From: Planctomycetota bacterium
GTDB lineage: Bacteria; Planctomycetota; Phycisphaerae; Sedimentisphaerales; Anaerobacaceae
Length of the DNA stretch: 52,754 nucleotides
Direction: 5' to 3'
Assembly: GCA_014384025.1 (NCBI GenBank)
Contig: JACNGQ010000186.1
Location: 1 to 52,754 of the forward strand
Shown here: positions 1-41,124 of the stretch, piece after piece
How positions within the stretch are numbered: the first letter of the stretch is position 1
Layout of the letters: every line of letters starts with the position of its first letter
The notes under the pieces: generated by a model
The model's database searches: none
The model's input: the letters and a program-made list of their open reading frames with translations, nothing else
What the model was told of the DNA's origin: nothing
Program-made: the position numbers and the translations under genes

Positions 1-233
1 AATGTGTTAACGGTCAATTTACCATCCTGGCACAAGATTCCGTTCCGTATGTTACAGGCAAGAACTATCAGGTTAAGATATCCGCCCAGGGCAGCTTATT
101 GAATGTCTCTATAGACGGCAGCCCGGTGTTCTCGGTAAATGACAGCACGTTTTCATCCGGGACAATAGCGCTGTATAGCTGGGGCAATGCGGGCGCTTAC
201 TTCGATGATATCTTAGTTGAGAGTTCACCCTAA
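1..233 (+). CDS. C-terminal end of a secreted concanavalin/LamG-like domain protein (5' truncated)
   Basis: The open frame runs from the window edge (codons in phase from base 3) to TAA at 231-233, giving about 76 residues. The sequence alternates short beta strands and turns, with a segment reading NVSIDGSPVFSV and an ending GAYFDDILVE. This is the usual last strand pattern of family-16/LamG-like jellyroll domains in planctomycete extracellular proteins. The start and any catalytic domain lie outside the window, so only a binding or structural C-terminal domain can be claimed. It lies upstream of, and is probably transcribed separately from, the pseudopilin gene at 522, which has its own promoter-like sequence. 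Confidence 0.7.
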   Translation, partial: CVNGQFTILAQDSVPYVTGKNYQVKISAQGSLLNVSIDGSPVFSVNDSTFSSGTIALYSWGNAGAYFDDILVESSP

Positions 234-432
234 TCATTAGGGATCCATGTTGGGCAGCAAAAGCCCATATTATCAACCTGTTCTATTCTGACGCAAATTA
301 TCTACGAAGGCGGCTTTGCATGATAATTGGGTGTTGAACTAATCGCATCATATTCGCGATAGAATGGGTGATTTCCTCTGGTCTGTATCAACTGTCTTAT
401 TTTCAGAGATAGCGCTTTAAGGGATTCCACTG

Positions 433-462
433 TTGCGGAATAGTATCCGGGTATGATATAAT
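433..462 (+). promoter_or_regulatory. Sigma70-type promoter of the pseudopilin gene
   Basis: A perfect -10 box TATAAT (457-462) is preceded at 18 bp by TTGCGG (433-438). Transcription would start near 469, giving a leader of about 50 nt before the start codon at 522, which carries a strong AAAGGAGG site. The call rests on consensus match only. Confidence 0.5.
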
Positions 463-521
463 TATGACCAGAGAGCATATTACTAAAAAAGATTATCTCT
501 CTGAAAGGAGGAATAAACGCT

Positions 522-1286
522 ATGCGCGAACGAAACGGTTTTACTTTAATAGAGCTTCTGGTTGTGATTGCTATTATTGCGCTGTTGCTTGCCATATTGA
601 TGCCGGCACTGCAACGTGTTAAGAGTCAGGCTCGGACGATAACCTGCCAGGGGAGTCTGCACCAATGGACACTTATCTGGTCTATGTTTACAACAGACAG
701 GGACGGTTATTTTCATCAGGGTCTTGGTGGTGAGAGCCAAACGAGCGAGGGCCGATGGCCTGTCGTGATGCGGACGGAGTACAAGGATCTGGATATGCGT
801 ACCTGCCCTTCGGCGACGAAACCTTTATCAGAAGGGGGTCAAAATCCATTTGCGGCATGGGGTATATTTGCGGACGGCTCTTTCGGAAGCTATGGTTTCA
901 ATGAGTGGCTGTGCAATCGAACCACGGGCAGCAATGCGAGCAATTACTACAGGCATGTAAATATCAAGCCTGCGGACAAGATACCGGTTTTCCTGGATTG
1001 TTTTTGGTACGATGTTTGGCCGTTTCACACCGATCAACCTCCGCTATATGACGCCGCGACGGAAAACCTTGCCGGCAGCAATGAAATGCGGCGGGTCTGT
1101 CTGAACCGGCACAGTGCGGCTGTCAACGGTGCATTTTTGGATTGGTCCATAAGGAAAATAGGGCTCAAAGAATTATGGACGCTGAATTGGCATAACAATT
1201 TCGATATCCGTGGTCCCTGGACCATTGCTGGCGATGTTCAGTCGAGCGACTGGCCGGAATGGATGAGAAACTTTCAGGACTACTGA
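522..1286 (+). CDS. Prepilin-type N-terminal cleavage/methylation domain protein (pseudopilin)
   Basis: 254 residues. A short basic leader is followed by GFTLIELLVVIAII (residues 6-19), the type IV prepilin peptidase site with Gly before Phe and Glu at +5, then one hydrophobic helix. The C-terminal part has HSAAVNGAFLDW, which resembles the H-X9-DG motif of planctomycete pseudopilins with Asp retained. Proteins of this group are very numerous in Planctomycetota and are thought to be type II secretion-like or surface pseudopilins; the individual role is unknown. The start is supported by GAAAGGAGG about 11 nt upstream. The gene converges with the isomerase gene at 1311. Confidence 0.9.
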   Translation: MRERNGFTLIELLVVIAIIALLLAILMPALQRVKSQARTITCQGSLHQWTLIWSMFTTDRDGYFHQGLGGESQTSEGRWPVVMRTEYKDLDMRTCPSATKPLSEGGQNPFAAWGIFADGSFGSYGFNEWLCNRTTGSNASNYYRHVNIKPADKIPVFLDCFWYDVWPFHTDQPPLYDAATENLAGSNEMRRVCLNRHSAAVNGAFLDWSIRKIGLKELWTLNWHNNFDIRGPWTIAGDVQSSDWPEWMRNFQDY

Positions 1287-1310
1287 TTAGCTTAACTCCG
1301 CAAGTATCTG

Positions 1311-2399
1311 CTAAGAGATGCGCCCCAGGATGCGATCCAGAGAGTCTGATGTCTGGTAGATAAGGGCCTCCGGGTAGTGCGGATAGGGATGAAAATATTC
1401 AAAGGTGGCATATCCTCTGTATCCGACTTTGTCTAACTCTTCCATTACAGCGGGCCAATTAGTAGTACCATCCAGCAACGGACGGAACGTTTCCAGTGAA
1501 TGATCGGTGCTCTTCTTTGAAAATTCCTTGAAATGGGTATTTTGAATGCGTTTACCCATCATCGGTATCCAATGCTCGGGATGCTGAAAAATGGAAATGT
1601 TTCCGGTGTCGAAATGAATCTTCACATGCTCACTTTGAAACGAGTCAACAAAATCGTTCATTTCCATTGGAGTCATCAGGTAGCCGCTGAAGAAAATGTT
1701 CTCAACGTTTAGGAAAACATTCAGCTTCTCGGCCTGGGGTATAAGTTTTTTGACGGCTTCTCTTGCACGGCGATCACAGACGTCGTTGGGTACCGGCTCA
1801 TAATCGTCTCGCCATGGAATATCAACAGCGCCCGGTACAAGCAGTACGTCTTGCACGCCAAGGTCGTGAGCGGCTTGTGCGATTTTTCCGGCTAATTCGA
1901 GACCTTTCTTCCTCTTGTCCGGGTCGTTGCTGCTCAATGGATAAGGCCAAAAGAGAAAGGAGCAAAGCCCGCTAATCCGGATGCCGATTTTTTCGGCCAA
2001 TCGTCGAATGGCCTGGTAATCTTTCGTACCTGATTTTGGCGAAAGGTCGTTCTCCAGGTCGTAGTTTAATTCGATGCCATCAAATCCTGCATCTTTGGCT
2101 AACTGCAGGCACTCCTTCAAATTCATTTGCTGTGGATAAGGAAAGGCCCACTGGTTGATGGATTTCTTCATAGCGTAACGTTTTGGTGAACCTTTTCGCG
2201 GATCGGGCTTTCGTTTCGTCTTCTTTGCGTGGGCTTCACTCGAAAATGCTGCTGCACCTGCAGAAGCCAACACGGCTTTGATTACACTGCGGCGGGTCAG
2301 ACAATTATGTCCCGGCGGCAAAATACCGGCTTTCGAGTCCTTTGTATTGTTATCCTTTGATTGATTTTTCGGACAAATAGAATCTTTCGAGTTGAACAT
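1311..2399 (-). CDS. Sugar-phosphate isomerase/epimerase-like TIM barrel with Tat signal
   Basis: 362 residues. A long polar lead-in precedes a twin-arginine motif and hydrophobic stretch (TRRSVIKAVLASAGAAAF, about residues 35-52) ending at an AHA-like cleavage site, so export by Tat is likely. The mature part is an AP-endonuclease-2/xylose-isomerase-like barrel: FDGIELNYDLE, a metal-ligand Glu in LNVENIFF, KIHFDTGN and a final GYATFEYF. These are the acidic and His ligands expected for a divalent metal. The substrate is unknown; family members isomerise or epimerise sugars and inositols. ATG at 2399 is preceded by AAGGTGAT, which overlaps the stop of the upstream esterase gene (4-bp gap), so the two are probably translationally linked. 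Confidence 0.88.
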   Translation of the reverse strand: MFNSKDSICPKNQSKDNNTKDSKAGILPPGHNCLTRRSVIKAVLASAGAAAFSSEAHAKKTKRKPDPRKGSPKRYAMKKSINQWAFPYPQQMNLKECLQLAKDAGFDGIELNYDLENDLSPKSGTKDYQAIRRLAEKIGIRISGLCSFLFWPYPLSSNDPDKRKKGLELAGKIAQAAHDLGVQDVLLVPGAVDIPWRDDYEPVPNDVCDRRAREAVKKLIPQAEKLNVFLNVENIFFSGYLMTPMEMNDFVDSFQSEHVKIHFDTGNISIFQHPEHWIPMMGKRIQNTHFKEFSKKSTDHSLETFRPLLDGTTNWPAVMEELDKVGYRGYATFEYFHPYPHYPEALIYQTSDSLDRILGRIS

Positions 2400-2403
2400 A
2401 GTA

Positions 2404-3474
2404 TCACCTTTTGGTTCTCATATCATAAATTTCCTGTTTCCAACGGTTTTCATATAGATGCTTGTCAAAGAAATATACCAATCCCGGCAAGTCTATGACG
2501 TGTCCCTCTCCATGGACATCCAGGATTACATTTTCAGGCCTGTCCAAATCTTTATATATCGTTTTGATTTCATCCATCGCACGGCGAGCTAAAGGAACAT
2601 AGAACTGACTGGCCGGTTCAAGCATACCGTTCTGACATTGCAGAGGTCTGGGGGCGATAAGAGAATAGACATCGGCAAAGTCAACGTGTTCTCTAAGCCC
2701 CTCGAATTTCCAGCACATGCAGTGATTCTGCTCCATTTGATCCATCGTGGTTAGGAAACCGGCACTTACTGTAGCTGCAATTCTTTCATCCATGGCTCCC
2801 AGCCACATTGCCATTTCCCCACCCAGTGACAGACCGCCGCAGCCAATCCTGCGCTTATCCACTTCTGACATGGATTGCAGGTAATCTACACATCGAATCA
2901 GGTCCCAAAGCCGTTCGGTCATAAGTAACCGGCCTTTTTCGTAAACTTTGTGCTGGCTCACAGTAGTGGAAATTGTTACGTATCCCGTTTCAGCTAAAAC
3001 AGTGCCGAATCCCTTATATATACTGTCTGATTTTTTTCTCGGGCCTTCTCCAGAAAAAGTTTTGGGATCATATGGGCTATAGAGGTCGCTCCCATGACCT
3101 CCTATGCAAACGACTGCCGGAACAGGTTTGGCCTTTGAGCTTGGTATGGTAACAACAACTCGTATGCGCCTGCTCGATGTGGAATTTATTTCGACTTCCA
3201 TGATGTGGTATGTTCCTCTGTCTGCACGGGAGAGTTCATTTGCACTGAAAGGAATTGAGTTTCTTCTCTGGAGTGAATTGTCCATTTTGAGCAGTAGAAA
3301 TAGCCTGGCTCTAACATCTTCTTGCCACGCTTTGGCATCGTCTGCTGACCTTGATATATATCTCATAGAACGCTGTTGTGGGATGGCTTGGTCCTGTTTA
3401 GGTGCCGCGAGCAAAACAGAATTGCCGAAAAAAGCAAAAACTATCGCCATTATAATTCGTCTGTGAGTATACAT
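2404..3474 (-). CDS. Secreted dienelactone hydrolase/acetyl-xylan-esterase-like alpha/beta hydrolase
   Basis: 356 residues with an N-terminal signal peptide (RRIIMAIVFAFFGNSVLLAA). The fold is an alpha/beta hydrolase: oxyanion region VVCIGGHGSD, nucleophile elbow GGLSLGGE (Ser in a G-x-S-x-G context), acid near the PRPLQC segment and a late His in DVHGEGHVI. Family members cleave ester bonds on polysaccharides or dienelactones; an acetyl or acyl esterase acting on a glycan is the likeliest role here. It lies between a polysaccharide-lyase-like gene (46 bp upstream) and a TIM-barrel isomerase (4 bp downstream), which suggests a small glycan-processing operon. ATG at 3474 has GGAG 11 nt upstream. 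Confidence 0.87.
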   Translation of the reverse strand: MYTHRRIIMAIVFAFFGNSVLLAAPKQDQAIPQQRSMRYISRSADDAKAWQEDVRARLFLLLKMDNSLQRRNSIPFSANELSRADRGTYHIMEVEINSTSSRRIRVVVTIPSSKAKPVPAVVCIGGHGSDLYSPYDPKTFSGEGPRKKSDSIYKGFGTVLAETGYVTISTTVSQHKVYEKGRLLMTERLWDLIRCVDYLQSMSEVDKRRIGCGGLSLGGEMAMWLGAMDERIAATVSAGFLTTMDQMEQNHCMCWKFEGLREHVDFADVYSLIAPRPLQCQNGMLEPASQFYVPLARRAMDEIKTIYKDLDRPENVILDVHGEGHVIDLPGLVYFFDKHLYENRWKQEIYDMRTKR

Positions 3475-3520
3475 TTGTAACTCATCTCCTGAATATGGAA
3501 TTGTTTTATAAGAACACCGG

Positions 3521-4432
3521 CTACTTGTGGTTTGTCAAAGGCAGCATCGGGCCGATGTACTGCTTTGCTATAACAACATTGTCGATAAATAGATGGTCGT
3601 CACTATCTGCTGCCCACGTTCCGCCGTGGTAGATGTTTATCCAGATACGCTCTATCTTCAGGTCGGGCACATCGCGCATGCGTACATCTGTCTTCTCGAA
3701 TGCGAGCCTTCCATCGACCCAGCCGCGAAGGATGCCATCGTTCTTTCCCGGTGTGTTCATCCTCACGTACTGTTCGATACAGTACCAATGATTATTCTCA
3801 AGATAGCCCAGTTGATCCTTCTGCCAAATCCAGGCACTACCGTATCTGCCCCGCATATCAGCGTGATAGCAATAGAATCCTGTTGGCGTCTTTCCTTCTT
3901 TTTGCCCCTGGAACTGGCCCCGTGCCGACCATCCATTTCGACCATTGCTTGGTCTGCCGCCCCAGCCGCCCCGATTGTACGTACCGCCGATACCGGGCAG
4001 CTTGCCGCCCCTTCGAGGGTTCCAGTCGCTACCGAAGCGAAGATAATACCGAAAGTATATCTCTTCCGGCTCGCTCCCCGTTTTGTCCTTGAAATTATAT
4101 TCGATACTTGCACCGTAGTGGTCGCCCTTACGCACTTTGATTTGCAATGCCTTGTTCTGCAGAGGCTCAAAGCTCCGTTCTTTGTCCTCGTTTATCACAC
4201 GGACGGTCTTTCGTTTTCCGCCTGAGAAGTACTTGTGCCATTGATCGGACTCGAAATCAGTAAAGAGGATAACGTTTGAATCTTTTTCAATTCCTTTGTC
4301 ACCGGCATACTTAGCCGCCAATCCTCTTTCAACCGGCGTTTGTCCACCGAAAGAGATTATTGCCGGTGCAAAACAAATCGCAACAAGCCACGACATTAAT
4401 ATCCGTGTATTCTGTGCACTATATATGGTCAC
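3521..4432 (-). CDS. Polysaccharide lyase family 14-like secreted protein
   Basis: 303 residues, GTG start at 4432 with AAAGGA 6 nt upstream. An N-terminal hydrophobic signal (ILMSWLVAICFAPAIISFG) is followed by a jellyroll domain with an FRYYLRFGSDWNPRRGGKLP segment, then GIGGTYNRGGWGG, a SARGQF strand, GFYCYHADM, a YVRMNTPGKNDGILRGWVDG segment and a final HLFIDNVVIAKQY. The GGKLPG motif and the G-x-L-x-G-W-V-D-G strand are characteristic of PL14-like alginate/glucuronan lyases and relatives. Catalytic activity is not certain, because many bacterial members are uncharacterised. It is probably the first gene of the minus-strand operon 4432-1311. Confidence 0.75.
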   Translation of the reverse strand: MTIYSAQNTRILMSWLVAICFAPAIISFGGQTPVERGLAAKYAGDKGIEKDSNVILFTDFESDQWHKYFSGGKRKTVRVINEDKERSFEPLQNKALQIKVRKGDHYGASIEYNFKDKTGSEPEEIYFRYYLRFGSDWNPRRGGKLPGIGGTYNRGGWGGRPSNGRNGWSARGQFQGQKEGKTPTGFYCYHADMRGRYGSAWIWQKDQLGYLENNHWYCIEQYVRMNTPGKNDGILRGWVDGRLAFEKTDVRMRDVPDLKIERIWINIYHGGTWAADSDDHLFIDNVVIAKQYIGPMLPLTNHK

Positions 4433-4568
4433 GTCGAAATCCTTTCTTTGCTTTAGAGAATGCTCGATAGATTATAACGTCAAAGATGAATTGTTGCAAT
4501 TGATTCGGTGTATTTGTTACAATGCTCTATAAATTGTTGATGATATTGTTGTTAAAGGAGAAGTGGAT

Positions 4569-7500
4569 ATGAAGACCAATCGCTTTTTGTTTACGAAACC
4601 TGTATTTGTTTTGTGTGTATTGTGTATGGTCTCAGTTATCGCAGCTCAGTCAACGGTTTCTGAGCAGCAGGCCAGGCGGATTCTGGAGGCTACTAACATC
4701 AAAGGTGGTTTAATCGTTCACGTTGGTTGTGGAGACGGAAAGCTCACTGCGGCGTTGTGTGCAGGTGACAGTTATCTTGTTCAAGGGCTGGACACCGACG
4801 TTCAGGCAGTGCGAAGAGCGAGAGAGCACATCAGGGAGCTGGGAATTTACGGCGCGGTATCGGTTGACATCTTCGATGGGAAGCGGCTGCCGTATGCGGA
4901 CAACCTCGTGAACCTTGTTGTGGCTGAAGATGCAGGTGACGTCGCAGAGATTGAGCTTATACGCGTGCTGGCGCCAGGCGGCATATTGTATGAGAAGGAA
5001 GACGGCCGCTGGAGCAGTACCGTTAAACAGCGGCCTGAAAACATTGACGAATGGACACACTTTCTCCACGATGCAAGCGGGAATCCGGTGGCCCATGATG
5101 AGGTGGTCGGGCCGCCTCGTCACGTCCAGTGGATCGCTGAACCTCGACATACGCGGAGTCATGAACATATTCCGAGTATCTATGCGTTGGTCTCGACAAA
5201 TGGACGGATATTTTATATCGCGGACGAGGCTTCCGTTGCATCTATCCGACAGACTCCGCAATGGTATCTCGAAGCTCGCGATGCTTTCAACGGAATCCAG
5301 CTCTGGAAGAAACCGATCGGTACGTGGTTTCCTCATATCGTTAACTGGGGCCAAACGCCCCGTCAGCTTCAGAGAAAACTGGTTGCCGTTGGGAACCGAG
5401 TCTATGTTACTCTCGGCCTTCATTCGCCGCTGACTGCTGTGGATGCGGCCACCGGAGAGATTCTGAAAGTTTATGAGAACACCCGTGGTACCGAGGAAAT
5501 CGTTCTTCACAAGGGGACATTGCTTCTTGTCGTTCGAAGTGTTACTGATGAGCGAGTCAACGAGTTGTCGCAATGGGTACAGCTTGTCAGGAAGAAGTCC
5601 CCTTTAGATGCGCGAGAGACAGCCGAACCGCTGGTCAAACGCCTTCGTGCGACCGAAGCTAAGGGCGATAAAACTGTTCTTGCTCTCGATGCCGATACCG
5701 GGCGCTTGCTCTGGAAGAAGGATGGTGCGAATGTCTCCGGGCTTCGAACGCTCAGTCTGTGCGCTGATGGCGACCGGGTGTTCTATCAAAACGGGAGAGA
5801 CGTTGTCAGCCTCGACCTTGGAACGGGACGAGAGCTATGGTCCGAATCCTCTGCTCCTATGCGCATGGTGAGTAATGACAGCGTCTTCTGTGCTGATGGC
5901 AAGACCGTAACGGCTCTGTCGGCACAGACTGGAGAGACACAATGGGCCAAGGCAGCCTCACTCACTGAAATTCGAGACTTGTTTGTTGCCGGCGGCTCGC
6001 TCTGGGTGGGCGGCTTCAAGCCATTTCCGACAAAGAGGGGGCCTTCATGGGGCCCATACTTTGCGACGCAGCGGGATCTGACTACCGGCGAAATACTTAT
6101 GCACGTCGAACCCGAGAACCCGAGTCACCATCATCGATGCTACTCTAACAAGGCCACCGACCGCTACATCCTCGGAGGCAGGAGAGGTACTGAGTTCATC
6201 GATCTAAAGTCTGGCGATGTTCTGTGGCATAGCTGGGCCCGAGGTGTCTGCAAGTATGGCGTCATGCCGTGCAACGGACTCCTCTACACTCCGCCTCATC
6301 CCTGTGCATGCTATGTGGGAGTTAAGCTGTCGGGATTTCATGCCCTCGCCCCGGAAAGAAAAACCGGATTTGCGGTTAGAAAATCCGAAGAGGGCTGTGT
6401 TGAGCGCGGCCCCGCTTATGACAAAATCAACAATAGTCAATCGTCAATCAACAATAATTCGGACTGGCCTACATATCGCTTCGATGTCCAGCGAAGCGGC
6501 TCTACACCGGTCACTGTTCCTGCTGCGCTGCGCCGCAAATGGCAGATGAAAGCCGGTCGCAAGATTACGGCTCCTACCATTGCCGAGGGTAAGGTGTTCG
6601 CAGCCTCTATAGATGAGCACGAGATCTGTGCGATTGACGCTGATTCGGGTCGGCTTATGTGGCACTTCACTGCTGGCGCACGCGTCGATTCACCGCCTAC
6701 TCTATACCATGGCCGTGTGATCTTCGGCTCTCGCGACGGGTGCGTGTACAGCCTGCGGGCGTCGGATGGCGAACTGGATTGGCGTCTGCGAATAGCTCGC
6801 GATGGACGGCGCATATCGGTTTGCGGTCAGCTCGAATCTGCGTCGCCCGTACTCGGAAGCGTGTTGGTTCGAGATGGGGTGATATATTCTACGGCCGGCA
6901 GGTCATCTTATCTGGATGGCGGGATCGACCTCTATCGACTCGAACCCGAGACGGGCAGGGCATTATCAAAAACACCGATTTACAGCCCCGACCCTGAAAC
7001 AGGAAAACAGCCTCCGCAATTCGCACCATCATCCATGCCTGGTGCTCGTGCGGATATTTTAACGGGTGATGAAAGCTGCATCTACTTACGGGACATGGTT
7101 TTCGATAAGAGCGGCGCCGTATTGCCGGAGGGAAAGGCGCACTTGTTCACGCTGACCGATTTTTTGGATGACTCGTGGCCTCACCGCTCTTATTGGATAT
7201 TCGGTAAAAGCTGTTCCATCTCGACCGGTTGCAGCGGGCGTGACAGAAATCTCATCTTCGGCAGGCTGCTTGTTTTTGACGAGTCGATGATTTACGGATA
7301 TGGACGGAAGCAGGTCCACTGGTCGAACCAACTGCAGGACGGAACTTACCGGCTCTTCGCCGTCAAGCGGGACGATGGGAAAGCTCAGTGGACAAAATCT
7401 TTGACGATTCATGTCCGTGCAATGGTTCTGGCGGACAAGGTGCTGTTTGTTGCCGGGCCCCGCATGGAAACAGGTGATGGGCAGAAGGACCTTAACGAGA

Positions 7501-32859: not shown

Positions 32860-33005
32860 CTATCCGGTAATGCGAACTTGACGTAGTTGCTCCTGACCGT
32901 TATCATCATAAGCTGCTAAGAATGGCCGATCTGCACATGTTCGTAGTCCGATATGTTGCTGTGTTGTCCGGCCCAGCCCAAACATATGAGGAAGGAGTCG
33001 AGCCT

Positions 33006-34721
33006 ATGGCAAAAGTCACGAAGACGCGGGCAAAGTCGAAAAAAAAAGCCCCTAAAAAGGCTGCAAAAAAAACTGTGAAGAAAAAACGCTGTGTCTCGAT
33101 AAAGACCAAATCTAAAGTAATAAAAGCAGCTACGAACGCCCATGAAGAAGCTCCCGGAAAGGAATCTCCACGTCACTCCACTGCCGAAGATATGGCGCTG
33201 CAGCAAAGAGAGATTTCCGTCGCAGAATTTTTCACAAAGAACCGCCACCTTCTTGGATTCGATAATCCTCGAAAGGCGCTGCTGACGACCATCAAAGAAG
33301 GAGTCGATAATTCACTGGATGCATGCGAAGAAGCGGGAATACTGCCGGATGTGAAGGTCTTCATCGCTCCCGGTACGGAGGAAGATCGCTTTCGAGTGAC
33401 CATTGAAGACAATGGTCCGGGCATTCTTAAGACGCAGATTCCTATGATTTTCGCCAAGCTTCTTTACGGCTCGAAGTTTCATCGGCTCAAGATGTCTCGA
33501 GGCCAGCAGGGCATAGGTATATCTGCGGCAGGTATGTACGGGCAGCTCACGACCGGCAAACCCATATCTATCACATCGAAGACCTCGCAAAACAAACCTG
33601 CACATCACTACGAGCTTGAGATTGATACCAAGAAGAACGAGCCTCGCATCATTCTGGATGAGACTATAGACTGGCCGGTCTCGAGGGGTACCAAAGTTGA
33701 GATAGAGCTGGAGGCCAAATTTCAAAAAGGCCGCCAGTCGGTACAGGAATATCTCGAACAGACAGCAATCGCCAATCCTCACGTCTCGCTTGAGTTCGCT
33801 ACGCCGGATGGAGAGAAACAGGTGTTTAAGCGGGCCTCGAAGCAGTTGCCCGTTCACACAAGAGAAATCAAGCCCCATCCCTATGGTGTGGAGTTGGGAG
33901 TGCTTATTAAGATGCTCCACGATACCCAGGCACGCACCCTTCAATCGTTCTTGCATTCCGACTTCTCCCGTATCAGCAGCCGGGTTGCGAGGATGATCTG
34001 TGAACAAGCGAAGGTCTCCGAGCGGTCTCGACCATCTCGTATTGCAAGGCAGGAGGCCGACAATTTATATAAGGCCATCAATCAGACAAAGATTATGAAT
34101 CCACAAACGGACTGCCTCAGCCCGATTGGCGAAGAGTTGATTCTGGCTGGCTTGAAGAAGCAGATCGAAGCCGACTTATATACTGCTGTAACCCGGCCGC
34201 CTTCCGTTTATCGCGGTAATCCCTTCCAGATAGAAGCGGGGCTGGCGTACGGTGGTTCTTTACCTGTTGAAGGTCTTGCACGCGTGTTGCGATATGCCAA
34301 TAGAGTGCCCCTGCTTTATCAGCAGTCGGCCTGTGCGATGACGCGTTCAGTCCTCAATACCGCCTGGCGCAACTATGCGCTCCAGCAGTCTGCCGGCGCC
34401 CTGCCGTCGGGTCCGCTCATCATAATGGTCCACATGGCCTCTGTATGGGTTCCTTTTACATCTGAGAGCAAAGAGGCGGTTGCCCACTATCCCGAAATTA
34501 TCAAAGAGGTCCGTCTCGCACTGCAGGAATGTGGGCGGCGGTTGTCCTTATTTATTCGTCGCAGGCGTAAGGCCGCCGAATCAGAAAGGAAAAAGGCCTA
34601 CATCGAGCAATACATTCCACATATCGCCATTGCATTGCGGGAGATGCTGGAGCTTAACGAGCGCCAGGAGCACACAATGGTAAGACAGTTGACTGACGTC
34701 CTTCAAAGGAGCCGATCATGA
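33006..34721 (+). CDS. top6B: DNA topoisomerase VI subunit B
   Basis: 571 residues from ATG 33006 (AAGGAG 9 nt upstream); an upstream ATG at 32922 would add 28 residues without a site. A Lys-rich tail (about residues 4-45) precedes a GHKL ATPase domain: [12 protein letters not shown] (N-box Glu/Asn), VTIEDNGPG (G1) and [16 protein letters not shown] (G2). A H2TH-like and transducer region follow, as in archaeal Topo VI-B. ATP-driven dimerisation of the B subunits opens and closes the DNA gate for strand passage by subunit A. Its stop overlaps the start of subunit A by ATGA (34718-34721), supporting equimolar synthesis. Topo VI is characteristic of archaea and plants and is patchy in bacteria. 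Confidence 0.93.
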
Positions 34722-35806
34722 GCAAGGTTAAGGTTGCAAATCAAATCAAAGAAACTGCAAACTCAGTTAGAAACAAAATCCAGCGAAAGAGCAAGCCCAC
34801 TCTCTCGTTTCCCCTGCGCTCGCTGAGCAATGTGACGTACCACCCGAAGAAAGGCTTCCTTGAGCTTAAAGGCAAAAAAAAGATACGAACGCTCACGGTC
34901 GCCACGGTCAAGACCTTTGCCCAAACCCTGCGAATGATGTCCCAGGCCAAGACTCTCGTTGAAGATGACGAAATCATGACTAAGCGAGAGGCGTACTATG
35001 TATCCAAAAACTGGGACGATGCCCGCTTTGACGAACAGCCCGAATCGGACACCGTAATCGACGACATAGAAGGCCTGTTCGAGGTCAACCGCGAACAGCT
35101 CGGATTCATCCCGGAGGAAAAAGGCGGCGAAATTGCCGGCAAGCTTATTGTCATCGACCGTGATTCGGACGGGGGTAAGCCCTTGCGCATCGACTGCACA
35201 AAATTCGGCTCCGGTGCCTACTCGATACCAAGCTCCGTCGAGCATCTGAAATTCGAAACAAAAGCAAAATTCGTGCTCGCCATTGAGACCGCTGGTATGT
35301 TTCAGCGCCTGGTCAAACACAACTACTGGCGCAAAGCCAACTGCATCCTCATATCTATGGGCGGTGTACCCACGCGTGCCTGTCGCCGCTTCATTCGACG
35401 GATTGCTGACGAGTTGAAGCTCCCTGTATATGCATTTGTGGATTGTGACCCATACGGCATGTTCAACATCTACCGCACGCTGAAGGTCGGCTCCGGCAAC
35501 GCCGCGCACATCAATCGCTACTTTTGCGTACCCAATGCCAGGTTCCTCGGTGTTACACCCCAGGACATCGTAAACTACAAGCTGCCCACTCATCCGCTCA
35601 AGGATGTGGACATCAAACGCGCCAAAGACGCTCTAAAGAACGATCCGTTTGTGCAGCACTATAAGCCCTGGCAGGATGCGATTAAGCAGTTACTCGATAT
35701 GGGAGTCAGGGCCGAGCAGCAGGCCTTTGCCGTTCACAACCTCAACTACGTTATCGAACACTACCTCCCTGAGAAACTCGCCGCACGCAAGACTTTCTTA
35801 CCGTAA
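34718..35806 (+). CDS. top6A: DNA topoisomerase VI subunit A (Spo11-like)
   Basis: 362 residues. The winged-helix part carries the active-site Tyr pair in [11 protein letters not shown] (Y93/Y94). The Toprim domain has the Glu of [13 protein letters not shown] and the DxD motif AFVDCDPYG for Mg2+. Length is typical of archaeal Topo VI-A. The subunit makes the double-strand break through 5'-phosphotyrosine links and works with subunit B, encoded immediately upstream with a 4-nt overlap. Together they relax supercoils and decatenate DNA. The eukaryotic relative is Spo11. All key motifs seem intact, so the enzyme is probably active. Confidence 0.93.
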
Positions 35807-35896
35807 GACCAGATGCTTGCGGTTCGGCTAATCTATCAATGAAACGTCGGTGAACAGCGTGGAACTTCCTGTATTCTATTGAACTGCGCGTAATGA

Positions 35897-36274
35897 TCAA
35901 CTCTGCGGCGGCCCGTTAGGGACATCAGCAGAAGTGCCATGTTGGCACTGTTCCTTTTCTATCCCACGATTGGATCTAAACAGTAACCCAATCAACATAA
36001 TAGGAACATTCCATACTATCATTATGACTCTGAATAATCGGCCTGGAATAGAAACATCGCGAGACCATATTTGACGCCAGGCCTGCCCCCAAACGCTCGC
36101 TTGCCAGCGAACGCTTTCAAGTGGAAGATAATGCGTAAATTGACCAGTTGCACTGCCGCAATTGGGGCAATAGTGAGCAAGAGGATCAACTGGCTTGAAG
36201 CACTTTATACAAACGGGTGTTCCATCGCCTTCTTCTTCAGGTATTTCTTTTGGTTCCATGGTCGATAATTCCAT
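35897..36274 (-). CDS. Zinc-ribbon membrane-associated small protein
   Basis: 125 residues. The start at 36274 has AGGGA 6 nt upstream. After an acidic N-terminus there is a zinc ribbon CIKCFKPVDPLAHYCPNCG (residues 22-40) with two C-x2-C knuckles, a polar aromatic stretch and one hydrophobic helix (VIMIVWNVPIMLIGLLF). A hydrophilic tail follows. No family is recognised. It lies immediately after the attC-like hairpin in the direction of transcription, so it might itself be an inserted cassette or simply resident chromosomal sequence; no attC-like site follows it. Confidence 0.7.
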   Translation of the reverse strand: MELSTMEPKEIPEEEGDGTPVCIKCFKPVDPLAHYCPNCGSATGQFTHYLPLESVRWQASVWGQAWRQIWSRDVSIPGRLFRVIMIVWNVPIMLIGLLFRSNRGIEKEQCQHGTSADVPNGPPQS

Positions 36275-36285
36275 TTTGATTCCCT

Positions 36286-36365
36286 GCCAACGTCAGTCTT
36301 GACCAGCTTCGGATGCCGCGTTCGGCGCGGTATTCGAAGTCGTGTTCGAAAACTTTGTTAGATGC
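36286..36365 (-). other. attC-like recombination site of an integron cassette
   Basis: On the minus strand this begins at CATCTAAC, matching R-Y-Y-Y-A-A-C, with the DUF5661 stop TAA inside it, and ends GACGTTGG. The plus strand folds as follows. The central stem 36306-36320/36326-36340 has 12 Watson-Crick pairs and 3 G.T wobbles around loop TTCGG. The L boxes are AGTCTT (36295-36300) and AAAACT (36349-36354). The R boxes are CCAAC (36287-36291) and GTTAG (36357-36361). Unpaired spacers of 5 and 8 nt interrupt the stem. Wobbles rather than mismatches in the plus-strand central stem fit the known folding of the attC bottom strand, the strand used by IntI. Confidence 0.6.
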
Positions 36366-36832
36366 GCTCCTTCAATTGACTTGCAACGGCTTGATTCAGG
36401 GCGTTCTGAGCTTCGATAAGTTTTTTATACTTCGACTCTATTTTCTCGATTTTTCGAGACAATATAGCCTTCAATAAGTCGCCTTCCATTTCAGCAACAT
36501 CAATTCTGCGATAGTAATCTATAGTTTCTTTAAGATGGGCTATGACAATCTTACCCGTTAAGATTGGATGATTGTTCGTCACATTTGCATCATCAAATCG
36601 GGTGCCGTGCTCAAGCTCGACCTCCAAACCTTTTCTGAAATCCTCAAGAGGAATCTCCATTGATTTCGTGTTTACAATTTTAAGGATCGTGGATGCTTCT
36701 TCCTCCGAAACAGTTGGGTCAGCTTTTTCAGACCAATCACTCAATCCGATTGTTCTGCAGACGGTTTTTACCTCTTCAGTAGTAACGTATTCAGGCAGTT
36801 TCATAATTTTCTCCTTTTTTGAGGCATCTAAC
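36291..36832 (-). mobile_element. Probable integron gene cassette carrying the DUF5661 gene
   Basis: The 5' edge is GTTAGATGC on the minus strand (GCATCTAAC at 36824-36832), 20 bp before the ATG; the 3' edge is the attC-like hairpin. The cassette is about 541 bp with one gene. Its 5' core GTTAGATGC is a perfect 9-nt complement of the GCATCTAAC at the gene's 3' end, as expected if the circular cassette attC were reconstituted. No integrase gene is in the window and no second convincing attC was found, so this resembles a single orphan cassette (SALIN type). Confidence 0.55.
36358..36804 (-). CDS. DUF5661 family protein
   Basis: 148 residues, AAAAAAGGAG upstream of ATG. The conserved block GLEVELEHGTRFDDANVTNNHPILTGKIVIAHLKE matches what I know of DUF5661, followed by DYYRRIDVAEMEGDLL and a C-terminal coiled-coil-like helix (SRKIEKIESKYKKLIEAQN). 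Family function is unknown; related genes occur in mobile contexts and phages. The stop codon TAA is embedded in the attC-like site. A promoter (TTGACA-16-TATTTT on the minus strand) sits about 130 bp upstream. Confidence 0.85.
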   Translation of the reverse strand: MKLPEYVTTEEVKTVCRTIGLSDWSEKADPTVSEEEASTILKIVNTKSMEIPLEDFRKGLEVELEHGTRFDDANVTNNHPILTGKIVIAHLKETIDYYRRIDVAEMEGDLLKAILSRKIEKIESKYKKLIEAQNALNQAVASQLKERI

Positions 36833-36909
36833 TATGTATATACGGTTTCCGTACAACATCCCGAACTTCTCGCCATTCAAAGTAATCCCAGCCGCTGTTG
36901 TACCCTCAT

Positions 36910-36937
36910 AAAATACAAACACTCTTTAGTCTGTCAA
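36910..36937 (-). promoter_or_regulatory. Promoter for the DUF5661 cassette gene
   Basis: On the minus strand TTGACA (36932-36937), 16 bp, TATTTT (36910-36915). It lies outside the cassette edge at 36832, in the position an integron Pc promoter would have. An inverted repeat GTACAACA/TGTTGTAC (36851-36858 and 36896-36903) lies between the promoter and the cassette. Confidence 0.5.
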
Positions 36938-36993
36938 GAGAAAATAACAAACAAATACTATTGATGTCGGCTTAATGAGCTTGAAAAAATCCT

Positions 36994-37113
36994 TTATTTT
37001 TTAGTCTTGAGGAATTGCGCATGGATTTTGGTGATTGCCCCTGGATGTGTATTGACAAACACAGGGATGTTCGCCGCTCGGTCGGACGCCGTAAGATGCT
37101 CCAGAAGCATAGG
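36994..37113 (-). pseudogene. Remnant of a second TolB-like propeller gene (C-terminal 39 codons)
   Basis: The minus strand encodes LLEHLTASDRAANIPVFVNT followed by an HPGAITKIHAQFLKTKK-like end and TAA at 36996-36994. This is almost the same as the C-terminus of the TolB-like gene at 48671. DNA similarity continues into the flank (about 36948-37113 against 48628-48792) and then ends abruptly. The remnant has no start codon or upstream gene body, so it is a truncated duplicate. Confidence 0.85.
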
Positions 37114-37162
37114 CGCACACATTTTCGCGTTATCATTTGATCTGTGAATCTTTTCTATAACT

Positions 37163-37819: not shown

Positions 37820-38031
37820 TTGCGGGCACATCTTCAGCGACATACGAACCGGCCCCGTCGTCATTGATTTACACGCGAACTCACAAAAATCGATGGCATG
37901 ATCTGAACTTCTCCAGTGCCGCCGCAATTCCTGAACGATCCACGGTACCTCTAATGCGGCCAACCATTACCACATTGAGCGGCAGCATTAATAGAATACG
38001 CTCACTTCCGATCTTGCGTCTGAAATTTATG
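37820..38031 (-). pseudogene. Remnant of a second condensation-domain gene (N-terminal part)
   Basis: About 210 bp match 40866-41079 at high identity. The minus frame reads NFRRKIGSERILLMLPLNVV, MVGRIRGTVDRS and ALEKFRSCHRFL, then a stop where the intact gene has HPFLGVRVQ. It has no start codon and is cut at GCGG, where the sequence switches to a 25-bp match with the middle of DUF3795 (37801-37825 against 39413-39437). It is clearly a decayed chimeric duplicate. Confidence 0.88.
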
Positions 38032-38041
38032 TCATGCCTGC

Positions 38042-39295
38042 TTACCATGCGTTCTTCTTAAACAATTCATCCAACCAATCAAATATCACTCGGTTGGCAC
38101 TCGTTCGGTTATCAAGCTGACAATGATCATCTGAACCGTCATTTTTCATAGAAAAAATATAAAGTTGTTTCTTTTTTGAGGAGATTGTTTCATAAAAATC
38201 ACGAGCCTGATCAATTAGCTCTTTTCCTTCATTTTCTCCCACGAGGGCTAAAGTCGGACAGGTAATTTTGTGCATTATATCACGCAAACACCACTTGTCA
38301 GGATCTTCTGAGAGTACTGCATTAAATAACTCTCTCGCGGAATATTGGCCCGCATATCCACTGTTCCACATTGCTAAGTACATCATCGACTTCATCAAAG
38401 GTGATTTTTTCATTTTAATCTCTGTCAGCCACGCCAAAAGATTTAGTGGAATCTTTATTTTATTAAGCATTGCCCTCTGCGCTCTGTTTATATCAATCAA
38501 CGGACTACTTGGAATTACGGCCTTTACTCGCTTCTCAAAAATGGCCACGCGCGATACAACATAACCTCCAAAACTATGTCCCGCTAACGCAATCCGCTCA
38601 TCAACTTCTGGAAGTTTTTCAAGCACATCAAATGCCGCCGAAAACGGTTTCTCCATATCGTGTCGCTTCACACAATCAGGATACAAGTGAACCGTGCCGC
38701 GATGCCCGGGAAACTCAAAAGTGAAAAAGTTATATCCTCGATCAACTGCCGCTTGCGCGCTCCAGTACCACACTTCCTCTCCACTCGAATCATTTCCTCC
38801 AACCGAAAACATCGTTGGACGTTTTTTCCCGGAATCATCTGGTGCCCAGAAGTATGCTGGCAATTGTTTCCCCTCAAATGGCACCTCAATAATCTGAATC
38901 GCCGGCTCAAACAACGGGCAAGCTTTGTGAAAACAATCACGGCTTCGTTTCCATAAATCATGAAACTTCGGGTGATAAGGAACTGCCGCATATTCACTCG
39001 CTCGGTAATAGTTCGATGCGCGCAAATACGCATCACGAGCACTTATTTTGTGACCTCTTTTCAGCGAATCTTGCGCTTCTTTTTCAACTCGCTTACCCAA
39101 CTCTTCCCACGCGTCAATCCATGTTTCAATATCACGTTCTTTAATTTTATCAACTACGCTCAAACAATCTCCGATGTCCGCTCCACCAGAATTGGCATAC
39201 TCTAAAGTTCGTTTAAAGAACCAATCCATTTCGACATCTTTGAATGTCCCTAGATTATTTGAGGAACGTGCAATTTTAAACTTTGCTTTTTTCAT
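38042..39295 (-). CDS. Alpha/beta hydrolase (FrsA/dipeptidyl-peptidase-like)
   Basis: 417 residues. A helical N-terminal part (about 150 residues: TLEYANSGGADIGDC, RDAYLRASNYYRASEYA) precedes the hydrolase core: RPTMFSVGGNDSSGEEVW, FEFPGHRGT, nucleophile AGHSFGGYV, acid near LVGENEGKEL and a His in GSDDHCQLDN. There is no signal peptide, so it is cytoplasmic. Family members are carboxylesterases or peptidases; the substrate is unknown. Its ATG overlaps the DUF3795 stop by ATGA (39292-39295), indicating coupled translation. It is followed downstream by the condensation remnant. Confidence 0.88.
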   Translation of the reverse strand: MKKAKFKIARSSNNLGTFKDVEMDWFFKRTLEYANSGGADIGDCLSVVDKIKERDIETWIDAWEELGKRVEKEAQDSLKRGHKISARDAYLRASNYYRASEYAAVPYHPKFHDLWKRSRDCFHKACPLFEPAIQIIEVPFEGKQLPAYFWAPDDSGKKRPTMFSVGGNDSSGEEVWYWSAQAAVDRGYNFFTFEFPGHRGTVHLYPDCVKRHDMEKPFSAAFDVLEKLPEVDERIALAGHSFGGYVVSRVAIFEKRVKAVIPSSPLIDINRAQRAMLNKIKIPLNLLAWLTEIKMKKSPLMKSMMYLAMWNSGYAGQYSARELFNAVLSEDPDKWCLRDIMHKITCPTLALVGENEGKELIDQARDFYETISSKKKQLYIFSMKNDGSDDHCQLDNRTSANRVIFDWLDELFKKNAW

Positions 39296-39744: not shown

Positions 39745-41124
39745 TTAACAATACCGTTGTAAACCAGTTTCCAGATACCCCATGGCAGCTTCCTTGAGAC
39801 GAGTGACATCACCAACAACGGATTCATTACTGGCCAGAATGATTGATAATCTCCCGCCAACCGTAATTACACCCACCATCTTTTCTTCGACATCTGAATA
39901 GAACAAAGGTCCGTAAACTGCCTCCAGCCGGTACGGCCCATAGGTTGTAGGAATGTCGAATCGGCCAACGTTGGTGAGCGCATATCCATACGTGATCTTG
40001 TGCCAACCCATCTTACTCAATAATCTTTTCGGCATGGCCTCATCCAACAGGCTGTACTTACGGAAGTAGATCGAATCGAGAAGCGTTGGGTGAACCATTT
40101 CTGAGAAAAACATTCGGAATAGGTTGGTCTTGGAGAGTTCTTTCGTGATCCTCGAATGCACCGTTCTTGCGTTGTCCCAGAAGGATTTCCGCCGAGAGTA
40201 CGGTAGTTTCACTGTCAGAGAGGAAGCATAGAACCCGAATGCCTCTCCTACCGATACATTTAGTTTGTTGCGTGTACTCACAGCCAGCGCCGAGCGCTTG
40301 CGATATCGCCGCCTGTCGCCCTGAACATCATATTGTGCAGCAAGGAATGCCGTCCACAGAGCTGTGTTGACCGTCACATTCTCAGCACGGCATCGTTCCA
40401 CCAGGCCTGCGGTTGTCCTAGGATCCATATCCCACGCTATCACCTGTATCGCAGAATTGTGTTTCCAGAACTCCTCATGCATTCGGCACATTTCCGACTC
40501 GGAAAAACGTATGTTCTTTGCCGCCCATTTCTTGTTGATTCTGGTCATAATGAACCGCAGAAGCGGATTAGTGGATGGAGGACTTGGCACTGTAGTACGG
40601 TCGATGGGCGGAGGATAAATTGAGCCATCAAAATCCTGTGTCGGTTCGGCAATGTATTTCAGCAGGTCACGGATAAGGTATCCCAGTGACATTCCATCGC
40701 AGATGGCGTGATGTCCGCATAGTATGATCTCGGACACATCCTCCGATTGAATGAGTGAACATCGCACCAGCGGTCCTGTCTCAATCGGAAATGGTGTGCG
40801 AAATTCTTCCTTTAAACGATCAATCCACTGTTCCTCGCATTGCCTTGGCTCTACATGAATCACAATTGCGGGCACATCTTCAGCGACATACGAACCGGTC
40901 CCGTCGTCATCGATTTGCACACGAACGCCCAAAAATGGATGGCGCGATCTGAGCTTCTCCAGTGCCGCTGCAATTCTTGAACGATCCACAGTACCTCGAA
41001 TGCGGCCAACCATTACAATATTTAACGGCAGCATCAATAATATGCGTTCACTGCCGATCTTGCGCCTGAAATTGGTCCTGTCTCTATTGTTCATAAGTAA
41101 TTCCAGTACTGCTGGATTATTCAT
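39745..41124 (-). CDS. Condensation-domain/PapA-like acyltransferase
   Basis: 459 residues. The catalytic motif GHHAICDGMSL (HHxxxDG, residues 138-144) and the second-lobe segments ALAVSTRNKLNVSVGEAFGFYASSL and YALTNVGRFDIP are typical of condensation domains, chloramphenicol-acetyltransferase-like enzymes and PapA-type acyltransferases. Without a peptidyl carrier protein or adenylation domain nearby it is more likely a stand-alone O/N-acyltransferase of lipid or metabolite assembly. Its ATG overlaps the methyltransferase stop (ATGA, 41121-41124), so the pair is coupled. A decayed copy of its N-terminus lies at 37820. Confidence 0.85.
   Translation of the reverse strand: MNNPAVLELLMNNRDRTNFRRKIGSERILLMLPLNIVMVGRIRGTVDRSRIAAALEKLRSRHPFLGVRVQIDDDGTGSYVAEDVPAIVIHVEPRQCEEQWIDRLKEEFRTPFPIETGPLVRCSLIQSEDVSEIILCGHHAICDGMSLGYLIRDLLKYIAEPTQDFDGSIYPPPIDRTTVPSPPSTNPLLRFIMTRINKKWAAKNIRFSESEMCRMHEEFWKHNSAIQVIAWDMDPRTTAGLVERCRAENVTVNTALWTAFLAAQYDVQGDRRRYRKRSALAVSTRNKLNVSVGEAFGFYASSLTVKLPYSRRKSFWDNARTVHSRITKELSKTNLFRMFFSEMVHPTLLDSIYFRKYSLLDEAMPKRLLSKMGWHKITYGYALTNVGRFDIPTTYGPYRLEAVYGPLFYSDVEEKMVGVITVGGRLSIILASNESVVGDVTRLKEAAMGYLETGLQRYC

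Follow-up and report, generated by a model that had tools for sequence, protein, structure and literature searches.

In the textbook integron, a single attI site lies beside its integrase, and good expression is restricted to the cassettes near this one attI and its promoter; only a limited number of captured genes is therefore usable at a time. In published descriptions attI directly borders intI (PMC9668308). Cassettes that have no integrase in their vicinity, the CALINs, are considered mobilisable in trans (PMC9668308; PMC12444791), off-target cassette insertions use attG or secondary sites (PMC12444791; PMC10127599), and pieces of attI that replace attC behind an ORF are mobile and functional for IntI1 (PMC12901181).

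The window, i.e. the whole stretch of 52,754 nucleotides of planctomycete DNA analysed here, very probably carries an integron platform with two cassettes and no integrase. It would be one of many attI-promoter landing pads that are scattered over the genome and probably filled in trans. The platform is composed of a leader with a putative promoter and attI, two cassettes and a 3' segment. It shares with the chromosomal integrons of two other planctomycetes, G031 and G058, the same attI sequence, the same G^TT point and cassettes with attC sites; in those integrons attI is beside intI, whereas in the window a putative promoter replaces intI, and copies of the site are dispersed over the genome. 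As in a CALIN, the cassettes lack a nearby integrase, but CALINs are defined by clusters of attC sites (at least two above threshold, with no intI nearby), while the window presents a conserved leader and the attC sites of both its cassettes remained under detection with our home-made covariance model. The scattering of cassettes over the chromosome, outside an integron, recalls attG insertion. However, attG targets are distinct from both attI and attC and are found at numerous unrelated loci, whereas the targets here, including that of the window, are copies of one conserved attI. Finally, the delta-attI cassettes of class 1 and 2 integrons also contain attI pieces that travel and are functional for IntI1 (PMC12901181), but they remain in mobile integron arrays, whereas the leaders are found with putative promoters at many chromosomal loci. 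No description of multiple, duplicated or scattered attI sites was found in the open-licence papers searched, and we file the multi-copy dispersed attI with promoters as a previously undescribed form of integron.

The repeated leader and the integrase genes

The short form of the leader (36,832..36,955, minus strand) lies immediately upstream of cassette 1 and ends with ...GGAAACCGTATATACATA|G^TTAGATGC, the G of G^TT being at 36,832. At the DNA level, the leader recurs many times in the source genome and in its genus, with a shared part of about 120-250 bp. The leader contains a sigma70-like promoter, TTGACA-16-TATTTT (36,910..36,937, minus strand; one found in the scan for 0.7 expected by chance), and TTGACA-like and TATTTT-like hexamers occur at a constant position in most of 29 leader copies. 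This promoter is a possible candidate for the cassette promoter Pc, which would read into the array. At the 3' end of the leader is the attI core repeat TGTACGGAAACCGTATATACATAGTT (36,830..36,855, minus strand). Using the pattern TATACGGAAACCATATATACATNGTT with up to 3 mismatches, we found 19 core sites in the source genome, 20 in G005, which belongs to the same genus, and 18 in G058, while the reversed core, used as a control, gave 0 in 148 genomes. The core is present in 31 of the 89 genomes of the source family (the source genome counted) and absent from all 59 genomes that represent the order's other families. An exact scan of 84,980 named species genomes returned 36 stretches, all but two of them in planctomycete MAGs (Phycisphaerae, Sedimentisphaerales). 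The core was also seen on contigs labelled Aminicenantes and Omnitrophota (L265 and L266, the latter with two leader-cassettes with matching ends), for which transfer and misbinning are both possible. The short form looks as if it had arisen from the long form by a deletion between two TTATACGGAAACCATATA copies. In another genome (G009:C29, approximately 250-760, L141), a zinc-ribbon homologue lies between two near-identical copies of another promoter-like leader, ending with TATAATCATTGTTGGGAG, which may represent a second family of leaders.

The long form of the leader was found immediately after a full-length integron integrase gene in G031 (476.7 bits for a cut-off of 265), and the sequence adjacent to this intI is matched by 63 of the 74 dispersed leader copies, in 19 cases over 120 bp or more, with up to 86% identity. 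In the same way, G058 (= G480, the B3_Pla MAG) encodes an IntI of 478 bits that shares 52% identity with IntI1, and its gene is followed by a diverged form of the leader site. In both genomes intI and the cassettes are read in the same direction. Considering that the leader directly follows a full-length intI in two relatives, and that the leader of the window matches both intI-adjacent sites, the leader is, as judged from its sequence, attI. Among the genomes tested, intI beside a leader-type attI was found only in genus g27, to which G031 and G058 belong.

The sequence-only reading had seen no integrase, and indeed none was matched on the window's contig, so that no intI accompanies the leader there. 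No full-length intI was found in the genomes G000 (the source genome) to G005. Of the genome-wide search that had been proposed for intI and attC, the attC part was positive (11 sites, see below) and the intI part yielded only fragments, on contigs C280, C248 and C48 of the source genome; these fragments adjoin other attI sequences and are oriented away from their cassettes. Nearly all the genomes compared are MAGs, many of them fragmented, and therefore an absent intI may be an assembly gap. The full-length IntI of G017 was rejected as the cognate integrase, having no leader around it and lying on a contig that may be foreign. The tyrosine recombinases on C229, C231 and C385, which score far under the IntI cut-off, were taken for Xer- or transposon-type enzymes. 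Contig C48 (L286) carries, at 176-6,800, a separate integron with several cassettes with good attC sites, the N-terminal intI fragment pointing away from the cassette array. Full integron integrases above the cut-off were present in 49 of 294 planctomycete genomes, just one of them in the window's class.

The two cassettes, their attC sites and their neighbours

Cassette 1 (36,291..36,831, minus strand, 541 bp) extends from TTAGATGC through the G preceding TTGGCA, and exhibits G^TT at each end together with an exact 9-base complementarity between its own ends. It encodes a DUF5661 protein of 148 aa (36,358..36,804, minus strand; PF18905, E 1.7e-9), the ATG of which is preceded by AGGAG. As originally read, the gene ends inside an R-Y-Y-Y-A-A-C motif, within GCATCTAAC (36,365-36,357, minus strand), and starts just past the complement of this 3' core, about 20 bp beyond GTTAGATGC (36,832-36,824), an exact 9-base match. 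As GTTAGATGC occurs just 15 times in the 6.69-Mb source genome (24 for the reversed control), the presence of such an inverted pair within about 480 bp is unlikely to be due to chance, roughly 1 in 1000 by our own estimate. These counts display no enrichment that would indicate more copies of the cassette 1 end. No homologue of the DUF5661 gene was recognised in another cassette: there was none among viral contigs, and those of two other genomes, G065 (its contig breaks off within the gene) and G112, have no visible cassette boundary. The proposal that the gene is an integron cassette in the chromosome of a planctomycete nevertheless survived testing, with a correction: the cassette had been called an orphan, which it is not, since its position coincides with the G^TT point of the leader.

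The attC site of cassette 1 (36,285..36,363, minus strand) is composed of R'' ATCTAAC, a 14-bp bottom-strand stem and a degenerate R', GTTGGCA. Hairpins of attC are expected to be more stable on the bottom strand. Folding each strand, as had been suggested, gave z values of -2.05 for the bottom (+) strand and -0.61 for the top strand, and in the re-circularised form of the cassette the R arms pair, with a z of -4.2. The L boxes are just partly complementary, 230 of 5000 shuffles scoring equally well, and the in-situ R' is not GTTRRRY, because GTTGGCA belongs to cassette 2. The attC covariance model was home-made rather than that of IntegronFinder, with rough E-values, and was trained on 19 independent attC sites from class 1 integrons and other planctomycetes, three misaligned sequences being left out of the alignment. 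With its filters off and E up to 10, it did not report the site, and a low covariance score was one of the outcomes that the sequence-only reading had named as counting against it. Rfam and tRNA scans of the window gave no matches. Of the claimed attC-like hairpin, R'' and the stem are upheld; the L boxes are weak, the R' departs from the consensus and the model does not recover it. Taken alone the site would be a doubtful attC, and it is its surroundings that decide.

The next gene, as first noted, starts near the attC end, 17 bp beyond the site. It is more than a neighbour: it encodes a zinc-ribbon protein of 125 aa (35,897..36,274, minus strand; relatives, and a weak PF12773 match under the cut-off) and constitutes a second cassette (35,894..36,290, minus strand, 397 bp), from TTGGCA through a mutated base preceding TTACGC. 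Cassette 2 starts with G^TTGGCA (36,291), and its R'', TGCCAAC (35,947-35,941), is the exact complement of GTTGGCA. Its attC (35,888..35,947, minus strand) presents canonical L boxes, ACT-T-CTGC / GCAG-AGT, with a score matched by only 3 of 5000 shuffles. The R' is mutated to ATTACGC, with ATT for GTT, whereas a paralogue on contig C4 has GTTACGC. In G009 and G001, the homology of relatives of the zinc-ribbon gene ends at the cassette boundary. Both cassette genes lie between G^TT points, each with an R'' complementary to its own start. Behind cassette 2 lies a degenerate version of a 3' segment that is conserved elsewhere (35,855..35,893, minus strand; partial local match, E 6.6e-5). Intact copies of this segment (TTACGCGCGGTTCAACGGAATTCAATAG...) cap other arrays exactly at G|TT after the last attC in 12 of the 16 matching loci, and the segment is probably the right half of an ancestral attI site. 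No empty leader fused directly to the 3' segment was found among the loci examined.

The genes behind leaders in general are likewise cassettes. Out of 64 distinct leader-borne ORFs, at sites that include related lineages, 27 have a start (GTTNNNN) whose exact 7-base complement recurs within 60 bp of the stop codon, compared to 1.57 ± 1.19 (maximum 8 in 5000) when the starts were shuffled among genes. An earlier set of 36 ORFs had given 14, compared to 0.99. The sequence-only reading would have been weakened by a lack of similar attC sites elsewhere; the covariance model matched 11 in the source genome and was positive in all six genomes of the genus, with few sites in other families of the order. 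Many of these sites fall in leader loci, one example being that of G005:C152 (41.9 bits), and several of those behind leaders are truncated. The cargo is diverse and includes a NucS-like endonuclease, a signal peptidase, DUF805 and DUF3800 proteins and a carbon-nitrogen hydrolase, and the leader copies of the source genome and genus usually have different cassettes or short arrays behind them.

In the window, the platform has a beta-propeller-like gene on one side and the topoisomerase VI genes on the other. On the promoter side, homology identifies a C-terminal remnant of the beta-propeller-like gene (36,985..37,136, minus strand), of which 36,985-37,109 is homologous to the terminal part of the gene that is intact in G003 and G005, two sister species of the same genus. 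G003 has no insert at the orthologous locus. G005 has two leader copies there, with other genes behind each, and its homology with the window breaks at the insertion point G-T-T, so that one orthologous site, between a topoisomerase VI gene and the beta-propeller-like gene, holds different cassettes in the source genome and in G005. The topoisomerase VI genes of the window (32,922-35,806, plus strand) make up a full pair of subunits, B and A, here in a planctomycete; subunit A was found in 23 of 41 relatives searched. Further along, a truncated duplicate of the start of a condensation-domain gene (39,745-41,124), FRRKIGSERILLMLPLN..., lies downstream of an esterase gene (37,881-38,048 and 40,990-41,124, minus strand).

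Proposed filling of the dispersed sites

The mechanism that we propose is as follows. The leader would provide a promoter and an attI site, at which circular cassettes would be inserted, attC recombining with attI at G^TT. The integron integrase responsible would be encoded at another place, either formerly in the lineage or in a donor. Each new cassette would then be expressed from the leader promoter, about 20 attI copies scattered per genome replacing one integron. Considering this number of sites per genome and a leader-adjacent integrase in g27 only, dispersed attI copies probably filled in trans appear to be the best explanation. The sequence-only reading had suggested mobilisation in trans, and capture in trans, with no integrase nearby, is likewise the reading that we favour. 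With no more than fragments of intI found in the source genome, present activity there is doubtful.

The leader sites could instead be fossils, each a once-complete integron that lost its intI independently rather than a pad filled in trans. The intI fragments on C280, C248 and C48, the degenerate attC sites of the window and the truncated ones behind several leaders are in line with such losses. However, those fragments adjoin other attI sequences and face away from their cassettes, G058 has 18 core sites with an intact IntI, and most leader copies have the same putative promoter where intI would be, which would place the spread of the leader after the loss of intI; we consider independent fossils improbable. 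Much less probable still is a lone cassette at an unspecific secondary site of the attG type, with the leader as a local promoter region only. Integrases are known to insert at attG (PMC12444791) and the in-situ R' of cassette 1 departs from GTTRRRY, but this unusual R' is part of cassette 2, the insertion took place in a conserved repeat whose layout is identical to that of intI-adjacent attI, and the G031 leader beside intI already contradicts this explanation.

The leader is, in addition, short, dispersed and promoter-bearing, as would be expected of an unrelated promoter repeat or a small transposable element, the complementary ends then being due to chance or to termination. Against this stand its direct contact with intI in G031 and G058, the own-end complementarity of 27 of 64 ORFs versus 1.6 after shuffling, and the attC sites in leader loci, and we regard this reading as highly unlikely, to the same degree as attG insertion. 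As to the spread of attI itself, composite junctions such as that of G003 (C724), where a 3' segment runs into a leader, recall delta-attI cassettes and suggest a possible route. The evidence is evenly balanced on a broader proposal, that of a distributed integron in which one integrase, or those of passing donors, would serve about 20 attI-promoter pads, attI multiplying as a mobile unit and the captured genes being expressed in parallel.

If the platform is what we propose, such sites may escape standard scans, in which intI and clustered attC sites of good quality are sought, since the window scores nothing in the home-made covariance model. The system offers a direct test of the multiplication of attI and of the natural use in trans of sites without intI. 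For the organism, many dispersed attI-promoter copies would lift the expression limit and spread the captured genes over the chromosome.
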